Source: a virus. Taken from it: DNA of 34,803 nucleotides. The stretch is from positions 1 through 34,803 of the IMG/VR virus record IMGVR_UViG_3300046616_000262, one strand, 5' to 3'. Each line of letters opens with the position of its first letter. Positions within the stretch are counted from its first letter, which is position 1. A program made the translations under genes and the position numbers. Below, piece after piece: positions 20,359 to 34,803 of this stretch. Under the pieces are notes generated by a model. The model did not search any database and was not told the DNA's origin. It worked only from the letters and a program-made list of their open reading frames with translations.

Positions 20359-21015
20359 TTAAGACTGGCTGTAATCCAGAATGTACTGAACCAGCTTGGC
20401 CACCTCGTCACGGGCCTTCGCGTCCACCGGCTTGTATTCATGGATGTTCAGGCCGGCGGCGCTGGCGCGGTCGATGGCCACCCGGTTGCCCAGGCGAACA
20501 GGCGCGACCGGGAAGCCCATAGATTCAATGTCGGCAATGGCCGTGGCGTTGTCTGAGTTTTCGCCATCGTCCGCCTTGGCCATGTTCAGGAACGGAATGA
20601 CCTTGATATCACGCAGCTCCTGGGCTTCCTTGACCAGCTCGACCATGTTCTCGTATGCCCACAAGTCATAAGCGCGCGGGGCAAACGGCACCACCAGCAC
20701 GTCCGTGACTGTCAAAGCCGCGCGCAGCGCGCCGGAATCGCGCGCGCCTACGTCGATGATGGTGTGGTCGAACTGTGGCGACTGCAGGCGCACCTGGGCG
20801 CGCAAACTTCCACCGTCCGATAGCTCTGTGGCCGCGATCCCTGGGAAACCCGCGTTGAGGCGGTTTGTCAGCGACAGCAACGCCGATGTTTGTTTTTTGT
20901 CACCATCGACAACCCACGGGCGCAATCCCTGCAGAGCAAAGCCGGTCGAGATCTGGACGGTGCTGGTGGACTTACCGACGCCGCCCTTGGTGTTTGCTAC
21001 AGTAAAAATTGTCAT
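20359..21015 (-). CDS. parA: ParA-type partition ATPase (short, type Ib-like)
   Basis: The 218-residue product has the deviant Walker A Lys-Gly-Gly-Val-Gly-Lys-Ser-Thr (residues 10-17) and the Asp-Gly-Asp strand that follows (37-39). Its Walker B strand is Thr-Ile-Ile-Asp-Val-Gly-Ala (Asp88). There is no N-terminal DNA-binding domain, so it belongs with short ParA proteins whose partner does the repression. ParA forms gradients on the nucleoid that move plasmid copies apart. Repeat arrays lie on both sides of the gene. Integrating P2-like phages do not need it. The start follows GGTAGGG. Confidence 0.93.
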   Translation of the reverse strand: MTIFTVANTKGGVGKSTSTVQISTGFALQGLRPWVVDGDKKQTSALLSLTNRLNAGFPGIAATELSDGGSLRAQVRLQSPQFDHTIIDVGARDSGALRAALTVTDVLVVPFAPRAYDLWAYENMVELVKEAQELRDIKVIPFLNMAKADDGENSDNATAIADIESMGFPVAPVRLGNRVAIDRASAAGLNIHEYKPVDAKARDEVAKLVQYILDYSQS

Positions 21016-21461: not shown

Positions 21462-21518
21462 ATCGGATCCCCTCTCGTCTATGCCACGCATTGGCAGGTT
21501 ATGGACTATGCACAAATC

Positions 21519-21619
21519 ACATCATACATACATCACCTATACATCAACTTAATGTATAAGTTGATGCAACAATACATCAACTTAATGTGTAATGCAAGTT
21601 GATGTATGTTTGATGTATG
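21519..21619. repeat. Candidate centromere (parS): clustered ACATCAA/TTGATGT dyads
   Basis: Two large perfect dyads are visible: CATCAACTT-N7-AAGTTGATG (21542-21566) and TACATCAACTT-N12-AAGTTGATGTA (21573-21606). Further ACATCA copies occur at 21519 and 21530 and TTGATGTATG at 21610. The array is AT-rich inside GC-rich DNA and shares its core with the two gaps around parA. Arrays of this kind are centromeres for RHH partition proteins. Confidence 0.8.
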
Positions 21620-21720
21620 GATTGCGCAACGACGAGCTGGCACCTGCGGCCGCCGGGCCAAGCCGGTTCTTGGGGCCGGGCGCCTACTTTTCCTTTGGCG
21701 AGGTACACACATCTCAAAAA
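21620..21720. other. Short non-coding spacer
   Basis: GC-rich sequence with an imperfect GCCGGGCCAAGCCGGTTCTTGG-type fold separates the centromere-like array from the iteron-like cluster. I see no gene. Confidence 0.5.
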
Positions 21721-21723
21721 ACC

Positions 21724-22100
21724 CGTGGATATGCCCCCGATTTTGAGCTAAGTCTTTGATTCTGGAGCAACTACCATCCACGGCAGGCACTCGGTTTTCC
21801 ACGAACTACCCCTGTTTTTCCACGGGTTTTGTTCCGGCCCCACCGCCCGGCCCGCCCGCTCTCTTCTTCTTCTTTCTTTAAGTTATTGAAAAGAAAGAAG
21901 AAATAGGGCAAGGAAGAAAAGAAGCCCAAGCGCACCGATCCACGGATTCCATCCTGTTTTCCACGACTTTTCCCAACTGCCTAAATTTTCATCCACGGAT
22001 TTTTCCAGTGGAAACAGGCATTTCCGTGGATTCCACGAAAACGTAAATTGAGCAAAATCAATAACTTAAGCCCGGATTTCGCGCAATCCACGAATCCACG
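21724..22100. repeat. Iteron-like cluster of TCCACG elements (candidate origin)
   Basis: Eleven copies of TCCACG (plus strand at 21777, 21798, 21819, 21939, 21960, 21992, 22032, 22087, 22095; minus strand at 21724, 22025) fall within 377 bp. Several extend to ATCCACGGAT or TTTTCCACG. The closest pairs are 8 bp (22087, 22095) and 21 bp apart (21777/21798/21819 and 21939/21960), about two helical turns. A palindrome TTTCCAGTGGAAA lies at 22002-22014 and an A/T-rich run at 21860-21905. Such phased repeats beside an AT-rich stretch are typical of iteron origins. Confidence 0.72.
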
Positions 22101-22104
22101 GAGT

Positions 22105-22331
22105 TTTCTCCCTATGCCTGCTTTTCGGACTCGATCGCTTCCCAGCCCTACACCTGGTGCGCAAAACCGCCCCTGCGCGCATCAATCCGCATCAATATCC
22201 GGCAGGCCCGAATGACTGGAAGCCTTACAGCTGGCTGCATCCGCGCAAAATCGCCCGGTGCATCATTTCCGAGGGGACGAAATAAGCCGGAGGCGTGGAG
22301 GGGCCTGCGAAATCCCGGAAAGGGGTAGGTC
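22105..22331. other. Non-coding stretch between iterons and hairpin region
   Basis: I see no convincing gene. The stretch contains a repeated CGCATCAAT (22179 and 22188), a purine-rich run near 22273-22310 and GGAAAGGGGTAGG near 22318, which looks like a ribosome site for the short reading frame at 22332. Confidence 0.45.
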
Positions 22332-22415
22332 ATGAGAAGCCGCCAGAGGCCCTACAAGCGCATCGTGGCGTCCGAGGTGGCTACGGCCGAGCTCGCAGCA
22401 AATAACCGCACCTGA
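22332..22415 (+). CDS. Very short open reading frame (possible leader peptide)
   Basis: A 27-residue frame begins with ATG 6 nt after AAAGGGGTAGG and reads Met-Arg-Ser-Arg-Gln-Arg-Pro-Tyr-Lys-Arg, ending in Asn-Asn-Arg-Thr. It is strongly basic at its N-terminus. The good ribosome site and its place directly before the structured region suggest a leader peptide, but chance is a fair alternative. Confidence 0.35.
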   Translation: MRSRQRPYKRIVASEVATAELAANNRT

Positions 22416-22439
22416 TGCGTTGTAGTGTGTCCTATTGGG

Positions 22440-22907
22440 ATTCCGCGCTAACGTTCAGCTCTTACCGCGCGCCCGTCGGCGCTTGGTTCCGGTCCCAATC
22501 GCGCTGCGCGCGACGCTAACGCGCCCCTCCGGGGTTGTGCCGGCTGCGTTACGAAGGTTTTCCCATGAATGGGAAACCCAGCCCACGCGGTGGCCAGCGG
22601 CCAGAAATGGGCCGTTGCCTGACAAACGGGGTTAGCCTCGCTGTGAGATGAGGTGATGAGCTGGGCGCCGCGTCCCGTGAGGGTGCGGGGTTTCGTCCAG
22701 CGTGAACGGGGCGCAGGTGCCCGTAGCCCTCGCCGGGGTTTGGCGAGGGTGAGCCGGTAGGAGCCGGGCCGGTAGGCCTTGGCCGCTTGCGGCCAACTCC
22801 GTAGCCCGGCGAAGGTCTGCGCAACCGGCCCTTGACCGTTGATCTGAGCATGTTGAGGTTATAAGGCCGGCCTGCCGGCCGTACCTTGTGCGCCGCGAAG
22901 CGGTGCA
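22440..22907 (+). ncRNA. Candidate large structured RNA or folded origin region
   Basis: About 470 bp hold at least nine hairpins and no credible gene. Clear stems are TAACGC/GCGTTA (22517-22522, 22546-22551) enclosing CCCC-TCC-GGGG, TTTCCCAT/ATGGGAAA (22559-22576), CAGCGGCC/GGCCGTTG (22595-22617) and CCC-GTGA-GGG (22674-22683). Others are ACGGG/CCCGT (22706-22724), CCCTCGCC/GGCGAGGG (22727-22749) and GCCGGGC/GCCCGGC (22763-22810), the last enclosing TTGGCC/GGCCAA. The set ends with GGCCGGC/GCCGGCC (22865-22880) and TGCGCCGC/GCGGTGCA (22889-22907). G-U pairs and a GNRA loop favour RNA. Strand and ends are uncertain; a single-strand origin or transfer origin is the alternative. Confidence 0.5.
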
Positions 22908-23026
22908 GTCATTTTCCTTCTTGGCTAGTGATTGTGGTGGTGGTTGAGTAACAACTTAATAGGGCAAATACTCGTAGGAAATCGTCAGAAACCCGCGCCA
23001 GTGCTGAGTCTTGACGATTCCGTGGT
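22908..23026. other. Spacer upstream of the dyad cluster
   Basis: Mostly unstructured, with TAATAGGGCAAATAC near 22959; a related ATTAGGGCAAATTC occurs near 23251, shortly before the rep gene. I see no gene. Confidence 0.4.
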
Positions 23027-23066
23027 TACGCATGACGGTGCGTAGAACTACGCATGGCGGTGCGTA
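23027..23066. promoter_or_regulatory. Paired TACGCA-N6-TGCGTA dyads upstream of rep
   Basis: Two 18-bp dyads with the same arms and 6-bp spacers lie at 23027-23044 and 23049-23066, 22 bp apart, two helical turns. A third copy is at 23199-23216. Equal spacing points to one dimeric DNA-binding protein, plausibly the RepL-like product or a copy-number regulator. Confidence 0.75.
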
Positions 23067-23198
23067 GTCTTGCGCATCTGGGTGCGGTGGTGATGACGTT
23101 GAGCGAAAGCCCAGGCACTTATTCTTTCGGTCATGTGAGCAATGACGCCGACAGTGAACGAAAGAGTAAGAGCTTGTCTTTGCGGAGAGACGAAAAGC

Positions 23199-23216
23199 TA
23201 CGCACTCGAATGCGTA
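23199..23216. promoter_or_regulatory. Third TACGCA-N6-TGCGTA dyad
   Basis: The same 6-bp arms and 6-bp spacer recur here, extended by one base on each side (CTACGCA/TGCGTAG). It is the copy nearest the rep gene and could overlap its promoter region. Confidence 0.75.
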
Positions 23217-23282
23217 GTGTCATACACATTAGCGGTAAACCCATACGGTGATTAGGGCAAATTCACGACGTCGCGATGCAAA

Positions 23283-23300
23283 ACCCATGTTATCATGGGT
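23283..23300. promoter_or_regulatory. Dyad in the rep leader
   Basis: ACCCATG and CATGGGT are perfect 7-bp arms around TTAT, 33 bp before the rep start. The centre TATCAT is -10-like. It may be an operator over the rep promoter or a leader hairpin. Confidence 0.5.
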
Positions 23301-23332
23301 GCATTGCAATGTTTATTTGGGCGGGGGAGTTT

Positions 23333-23896
23333 ATGGGAACTGCAAAAAATATAACGTTGCCGGCACAGGACGAGGCGGTGGCAGATGGTCGCGGAAACAA
23401 GTCCCAAGGCTGGCTGCAGTCGGATAAGGCCGCGCACCAGGCAATGTGGAAACTTGGGATCAAGCATCCGATGGCGTTGGCCGTGCTGCACTTCATGGTT
23501 TCCAAGTTGTCACGCGGCACAAATGGCGTGGTTATCAGCGCGGCCGCGCTCGCCAAACAGATGGGGATTGCACCCAGGACTGTACAAAACACCATCTCCG
23601 TTTTGCGGGATTGCAAGTTTGTTCAGGTCTTGAAGTCCGGAAATGTCAATGTTTACATCATCAATTCGCGCGTGGCGTGGCAGGGCGACCGCGGCATGCG
23701 CTATGCCTCTTTCAATGCGCAGATATTGGTTGATGAGTCCGAACAGGCCCAACCTGTTGACGAGCTGATAGAGCAAGCCAACGAGCTGATGCAGGTTCCG
23801 GTGATGCACTTCAATGAAGAAATACAATTGGATGCCATCGACCCACCGCCGCCGCCACGGCAGGGGAGTTTGCTCCCGCCGGAGTCAGACGAGTAA
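23333..23896 (+). CDS. RepL-like plasmid replication initiator (winged helix)
   Basis: The 187-residue product has the layout of RepL-type plasmid initiators. Residues about 38-60 form a helix before the DNA-binding domain. A winged helix-turn-helix follows at about 68-102 (Ala-Ala-Leu-Ala-Lys-Gln-Met-Gly-Ile-Ala-Pro-Arg-Thr-Val). The next strand block reads Val-Asn-Val-Tyr-Ile-Ile-Asn-Ser-Arg-Val-Ala-Trp, then Tyr-Ala-Ser-Phe-Asn-Ala. The tail is acidic and Pro-rich. Start 23333 follows GGGGGAG; an in-frame ATG at 23276 lacks a site. Firmicute RepL is the best-known group; relatives occur in Gram-negative phages and plasmids. A transcription regulator is the alternative. Confidence 0.75.
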   Translation: MGTAKNITLPAQDEAVADGRGNKSQGWLQSDKAAHQAMWKLGIKHPMALAVLHFMVSKLSRGTNGVVISAAALAKQMGIAPRTVQNTISVLRDCKFVQVLKSGNVNVYIINSRVAWQGDRGMRYASFNAQILVDESEQAQPVDELIEQANELMQVPVMHFNEEIQLDAIDPPPPPRQGSLLPPESDE

Positions 23897-34274: not shown

Positions 34275-34803
34275 ATGAACGAATCTCTCCGGCTGCTGCT
34301 GAACCTGGTACGCAAGGGCACCGTGCTGGCGGTCGATTACGACAAAGCACTGTGCCGCGTGGCCACGGGCGAGCTGCAAACCAACTGGCTCCCCTGGTTG
34401 ACGCTGGCCGCCGGCGACACGCGAGACTGGAACCCGCCCAGCGAAGGTGAGCAGGTCATCCTGTTGAGTCCGGGCGGCGACCCGGCCGAGGGCGTGGTGC
34501 TGCGCGGGATCTACTCGGACAGCACGCCGGCGCCTGCGAACAAGAAGCAGCTGCACACGCGCGTCTATCCCGATGGCGCCACCGTGCAGTACGACCACGT
34601 GCAGCAGCTGCTGAGCATAGACCTGCCGAAGCTGGCCGCCGTATTCCTGACCGCGCTTTCACTGGTGAAGATCAAGACCGCCACACTGTCCGTGGAAGGC
34701 AGCGTCAAGGCCTCGCGCAACGTGACCGTGGGCACGGGCGCCAGCGGTTCGTTCGCCACGACCAGCGGCAACATCGTCACCGTCATGGACGGCATCGTTA
34801 TCA
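34275..34803 (+). CDS. V: Baseplate spike protein gpV, 5' part (continues at 128-138)
   Basis: The frame opens with Met-Asn-Glu-Ser-Leu-Arg-Leu-Leu-Leu-Asn-Leu-Val-Arg-Lys-Gly-Thr-Val and has the family core Asp-Trp-Asn-Pro-Pro-Ser-Glu-Gly-Glu-Gln-Val-Ile-Leu-Leu-Ser-Pro-Gly-Gly-Asp (about 55-73) of P2-type OB-fold spikes. It is the first gene after the methylase and is under the Ogr-type site at 34205. The start at 34275 is preferred; an ATG at 34262 is in another frame. The gene runs off the window and is completed by bases 128-138 after circularisation. Confidence 0.92.
   Translation, partial: MNESLRLLLNLVRKGTVLAVDYDKALCRVATGELQTNWLPWLTLAAGDTRDWNPPSEGEQVILLSPGGDPAEGVVLRGIYSDSTPAPANKKQLHTRVYPDGATVQYDHVQQLLSIDLPKLAAVFLTALSLVKIKTATLSVEGSVKASRNVTVGTGASGSFATTSGNIVTVMDGIVI
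34677..34803. repeat. Terminal direct repeat, right copy
   Basis: Identical to bases 1-127. The two copies mark the point where the circular molecule was opened in assembly. Confidence 0.95.

Follow-up and report, generated by a model that had tools for sequence, protein, structure and literature searches.

The virus genome considered here, IMG/VR record IMGVR_UViG_3300046616_000262 (34,803 nucleotides, called the window throughout), is a circular phage genome written with an overlap, with a 127-bp terminal direct repeat at 1-127 and 34677-34803. The phage is a relative of Burkholderia phage KS14 (Peduoviridae) and a phage-plasmid: its partition gene parA is encoded on the minus strand, its RepL-type initiator gene, repL, on the plus strand. 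Between a run of minus-strand genes and repL lies a region, 22440-22907, in which an earlier note had described a cluster of nested hairpins that no gene explains and that might form a large non-coding RNA. No convincing gene covers this region and the stems are real, forming a folded element whose conserved 112-nt core of five helices lies on the same strand as repL and 510 nt upstream of its start (Table 1). The boundaries given in that note have to be corrected. Conservation among phage relatives runs from about 22640 to 22960 around the much shorter core, while 22440-22640 is common only to the window and its closest relative, in Duganella (L015).

Table 1. Features of the folded element and its surroundings (window coordinates).
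Feature	Position	Strand	Remarks
Conserved core, 112 nt, five helices	22711-22822	+	models R1 and R2; 60 distinct copies
P0, closing stem	22711-22718 with 22815-22822	+	part of core
PA, hairpin	22726-22750	+	part of core
P1/P2, stem with conserved TA/GTA internal loop	22753-22763 with 22797-22810	+	part of core
P3, hairpin, loop GGTA	22767-22778	+	part of core
P4, hairpin, loop CTTG	22779-22796	+	part of core
PB, hairpin with GTGA loop (22677-22680), directly 5' of core	22663-22698	+	alignments
TTGCCTGACAAACGGGGTT	22615-22633	+	candidate counterpart of plasmid motif CTGCAAAACC / TTGATAAACGG; weak resemblance
Two more hairpins 3' of core	22859-22889 and 22890-22906	+	conserved in phage copies
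repL, replication initiator	23333-23896	+	PF05732, E = 1.3e-5; neighbour of core in relatives
parA, phage-plasmid partition gene	20359-21015	-
Five TGCGTAG/CTACGCA copies, core-repL interval	23039-23217		candidate iterons or operators of RepL origin

The two-layer stem that had been noticed at 22763-22810 corresponds to helices P1-P4 of the core, and the GTGA loop caps a second conserved hairpin, PB, which is kept in the phage copies, in three small plasmids (L065-L067) and in a Herbaspirillum plasmid, where the loop is GAGA. In plasmid copies a pyrimidine-rich motif (...CTGCAAAACC / TTGATAAACGG) sits to the left of the core. Of the two hairpins on the 3' side, the distal one is part of a CCTTGTGCG-hairpin-CAGTCT motif (22881-22910); one phage has two occurrences of this motif, and a 5.1-kb mobilizable RepL plasmid carries it as well (L058/L093; L067; L071).

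Folded as RNA, the whole of 22440-22907 reaches -241.2 kcal/mol (z = -2.9; matched by one of 100 shuffled sequences), and the opposite strand gives z = -2.4. Fold energy alone is weak evidence in such GC-rich DNA, so that covariation has to decide. BLAST homologues in Burkholderiales plasmids and IMG/VR phage contigs were the basis of a five-helix model. Among 60 distinct copies aligned to this model, compensatory changes are frequent: 33 of the 39 pairs change on both sides and 94% of cells are paired, counts that lean somewhat towards the model to which the alignment was fitted. These copies have a covariation score of 0.627; sliding the partners by one to three columns lowers it to 0.10 or less, and none of 500 shuffles reaches 0.627. 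A MAFFT alignment of ten copies gives 0.284 against at most 0.066 for slid controls; model-based alignments were used for the final counts because the first MAFFT alignments misplaced the arms of P0 and P4. That the stems are chance hairpins of GC-rich DNA, as the modest fold z-scores would allow, is refuted by this covariation and retains a negligible probability. The distribution also speaks against chance. While 23 of 392 Burkholderiaceae genomes carry the element, only two of 369 class-level genomes do (the query and one other), and only two of 398 at phylum level (the query and one carrier found earlier); beyond the query and earlier-found carriers the counts are 1/369 and 0/398.

The strength of the compensatory changes indicates that the structure is under selection, a conclusion valid for DNA as well as RNA. 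The folding strand can be read from the wobble pairs. The G-U pairs reported earlier are present as G-T pairs, two of which are nearly invariant on the plus strand (52/64 and 56/64). Counted over all pairs, there are 203 G-T/T-G cells to 18 A-C/C-A cells, a ratio that is still 60 to 18 when three G-T-rich pairs are excluded; the plus strand of the window is therefore the one that folds.

The core is found in three kinds of replicon. The first comprises tailed phages, where RepL phage-plasmids of the same group carry it always upstream of repL and on the same strand, at 432-641 nt from the start of the RepL match. The second consists of plasmids of Burkholderiales and Xanthomonas. By BLAST, intergenic sites of Burkholderiales plasmids carry the central part of the element, up to six times per plasmid. 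Conjugative plasmids hold three copies in Herbaspirillum, six in B. contaminans, six in P. phytofirmans and two in P. citrulli, all lying beyond the inferred origin of transfer (oriT) on the side opposite the relaxase genes. In all 22 plasmid copies with an identified relaxase (L024, three copies; L020 and L052, six each; L056, two; L023, L066, L067, L068 and L049), the core occupies the strand opposite the relaxase gene. Gene order around the inferred oriT thus suggests that the conjugative-plasmid copies lie in the leading region, the part that is transferred first, on the transferred strand (T-strand). Several of them directly precede runs of genes read towards oriT (by about 195 bp in most L052 copies), and genes in or near these runs encode single-stranded DNA-binding protein (SSB), an N-6 methylase, DUF932 proteins and toxin-antitoxin systems. 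Small circular plasmids of 5-9 kb carry a single copy upstream of a Rep_3 or RepL gene and, where they have a MobA/MobL relaxase gene, the element is on the opposite strand to it.

Filamentous phages form the third group, with 12 contigs or chromosomal prophages that encode Zot, secretin and/or a REP_ORF2-G2P initiator, identities confirmed by Pfam in example phages. Here the element lies on the viral-sense strand, in the order zot-secretin-element-rep, in 12 of 12 wherever the anchors were found. A looser DNA pattern in viral contigs returned mostly chance matches, which were filtered out with the covariance model, and BLAST of the inovirus copies against named phages gave chance matches or none.

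This distribution bears on the idea of a structured non-coding RNA, transcribed from the plus strand and acting in trans or regulating rep. The strong covariation and the plus-strand wobble polarity would suit such an RNA, and loops of GNRA type (GAGA, GTGA, GCAA, GTAA) are compatible with RNA too; the GNRA loops and a GNA mini-hairpin were considered as discriminators between DNA and RNA and set aside as ambiguous. Against it, the element keeps to the inferred T-strand in plasmids and to the viral strand in inoviruses although the gene sets around it are unrelated, an oppositely directed candidate promoter occupies the flank expected for a plus-strand promoter in leading regions, and six near-identical copies in one plasmid better suit a cis-acting DNA site. 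Rfam adds no support: no family reaches its gathering score in the whole window, and none relevant appears at E up to 10 in 21500-23400. The RNA reading, including the large GOLLD- or ROOL-like RNA raised in the earlier note, is accordingly improbable.

Filamentous phages, transferred plasmid strands and small mobilizable plasmids have in common a single-stranded stage, from which duplex DNA has to be restored. Such conversion is known to begin at a single-strand initiation site (ssi) in PhiX174, through a primase complex, and at a single-strand origin (sso) in pT181, through RNA polymerase (PMC5714925). Because the core lies on the appropriate strand in carriers that share this stage, it is taken to be a single-strand initiation site, that is, a complementary-strand origin, most likely acting as folded single-stranded DNA (ssDNA). 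A probability of roughly 0.78 is assigned to this function, as judged from sequence comparison. It is also the alternative, named in the earlier note as a single-strand origin, that the strand and distribution of the core best support. The core would then be a new family within a known class of site, unusual in that ssDNA phages, conjugative plasmids and a tailed phage-plasmid have it in common.

Under this proposal, the core would act while the plus strand is single-stranded, its fixed five-helix fold loading the priming machinery of the host, which would then begin the complementary (minus) strand at this point. The infecting viral strand of filamentous phages would be made double-stranded in this way, and so would the transferred strand of conjugative and mobilizable plasmids. 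In the phage-plasmid the core, as part of the RepL replicon, would initiate second-strand synthesis on a plus strand displaced during RepL-driven replication. A site of the primase or primosome type is slightly favoured over RNA polymerase for the core, because the rep-proximal copies have no promoter-like boxes. More tentatively, and at less than even odds, one portable folded-DNA module might serve as the second-strand start for filamentous ssDNA phages, transferred plasmids and tailed phage-plasmids in Burkholderiales. The tailed phage, although its genome is double-stranded, would then pass through a regular ssDNA stage, via either strand-displacing RepL replication or conjugative mobilization of its plasmid form.

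Several observations weigh against a single-strand initiation site. Covariation alone does not separate RNA from DNA, the oriT positions rest on gene order, and exposure of the plus strand by RepL in the window phage is presumed. The folded core is absent from KS14 and FLC5, both of which live without the element; since the KS14 initiator is unlike RepL, the element and the RepL cassette appear to move together. On an Eleftheria terrae plasmid, in which no relaxase was recognised, two copies (L022, L055) depart from the pattern of the other plasmids, as they share the strand of the N-6 methylase and DUF932 genes next to them. The core and the rep gene beside it occupy opposite strands in plasmids of Massilia, Xanthomonas and B. 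glumae; a rule placing the core on the rep strand was dropped, as these three plasmids break it, whereas location opposite the relaxase holds in all testable cases. Some copies, forming a subfamily, also lie near IS21 genes or in ordinary chromosome. Core copies L069 and L063 are 0.1-1 kb from IS21-type istA/istB genes, and none were found near the related L073 and L094.

Beside most leading-region copies stands a second module, 158-164 nt to the left of the core in the aligned repeat copies of P. phytofirmans and B. contaminans. On the complementary strand it reads TAGAC(A/G/C), a 17-nt spacer and a TACAAT-like -10 box; when the T-strand of the module is folded, the -35 box and spacer lie in a stem and the -10 box is mostly unpaired. 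In two Herbaspirillum copies TATAAT stands at 212-213 nt, and a third was seen by eye only. A scan for the module found it at 14 of 18 leading-region copies, at 0 of 7 rep-proximal copies and at 0 of 9 phage copies; at the window copy it was sought and not found. The module reads towards the leading-region genes at a fixed offset from the core, and those near the L024, L052 and L020 copies are candidate Frpo-like promoters in Burkholderiales. In Frpo, the folded strand rebuilds -35 and -10 boxes (PMC9849209), and leading-region anti-defence, methyltransferase, SSB and toxin-antitoxin genes are reported to lie on the T-strand and to be accompanied by Frpo promoters (Samuel et al., PMC11541004). 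Coupled to such a hairpin promoter, the core in leading regions could allow early genes to be transcribed from ssDNA, as Frpo does.

This coupling raises the possibility that the core is itself an ssDNA promoter for RNA polymerase, a full Frpo equivalent instead of a priming site beside one. Most leading-region copies are indeed coupled at a fixed distance to a candidate hairpin promoter directed towards genes, and Frpo both primes and transcribes, according to the title of Masai and Arai (1997) as cited in PMC11541004. The module nevertheless stands apart from the core, at a distance of about 160-210 nt, and neither the phage copies, that of the window included, nor the rep-proximal ones have it; the core itself has no promoter-like boxes. 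Promoter activity of the core is judged less likely than not.

Two further functions were considered. A transfer origin, also raised in the earlier note, or a plus-strand nick site would account for hairpins near a rep gene, but there are up to six copies per plasmid, kilobases away from the relaxase, and no relaxase was recognised among the window genes. In addition, the core occurs with unrelated initiators (RepL, Rep_3 and HUH) and so is not the site of one nickase. This function is very unlikely. The other is a filamentous-phage packaging signal or ssDNA integration site that is passively carried elsewhere. The intergenic region that the element occupies in the inoviruses is, in M13, also the place of the packaging signal. 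Yet plasmids and tailed phages, which neither package nor integrate ssDNA in this way, have retained the element with its covariation and on a constant strand, and such a role is left with little probability.

The remaining non-coding DNA near parA and repL holds further repeats. Eleven copies of a CCACGG-type repeat (TCCACGG/TCCACGA/CCGTGGA) lie in non-coding DNA at 21723-22101 and are possible partition or origin sites. The stretch is partly common to KS14, FLC5 and FLC10, and BLAST of the whole 1.9-kb region against phages recovered, in KS14/FLC5, this part alone and nothing of the element. At 21519-21622, past the 5' end of the small gene that adjoins parA on the minus strand, TACATCAACTTAATGT recurs in AT-rich direct and inverted repeats, which form a candidate operator or parS. 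A tRNA/tmRNA scan found none.

What is known of single-strand promoters and initiation sites comes largely from enterobacterial plasmids and a small number of model phages, and no description of this family for Burkholderiales was found in the open-access literature searched. Its covariance model offers a means to find such sites. The element marks the likely transferred strand of poorly annotated plasmids, while the attached candidate hairpin promoter points to plasmid genes probably expressed early, often anti-defence genes. Filamentous phages, conjugative plasmids and tailed phage-plasmids would be linked in their replication by one exchangeable DNA part, and the question of which host enzyme recognises a single-stranded origin folded in this way becomes testable.

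Among known systems, GOLLD, ROOL and other large phage RNAs share with the element ornate hairpins in phage non-coding DNA. They differ in that the core measures only 112 nt, follows ssDNA in its distribution and has no Rfam match. The sso of rolling-circle plasmids and the ssi of PhiX174, likened here by description only, have the same proposed task of turning ssDNA into double-stranded DNA via host enzymes, and the element likewise occurs as a single copy near rep in small plasmids and in the window phage; its carriers, however, use RepL, Rep_3 and HUH initiators. Closer in context are Frpo and the ssi sites of F and ColIb-P9, which resemble the leading-region copies in their location on the inferred T-strand, in the presence of several copies with a candidate hairpin promoter alongside, and in their position upstream of ssb- and DUF932-type genes transcribed towards oriT. 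F Frpo is nonetheless one long imperfect stem without this core, and the phage and rep-proximal copies of the core are without the promoter part. As homologues Frpo1 and Frpo2 of F were rejected, since the model gave weak best scores in the F leading region and none convincing at Frpo. The genome of M13 was likewise rejected as a homologue, with no model match in the genome or intergenic region with filters off and E up to 1. The intergenic region of M13 holds its complementary-strand origin. Like the M13/f1 origin, the element of the inovirus members is folded DNA on the viral strand in a non-coding gap, and the M13 order gene I-gene IV-intergenic region-gene II is matched by their zot, secretin, element and rep. 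Unlike that origin, the five-helix fold constitutes a separate family that extends to plasmids and to a tailed phage.
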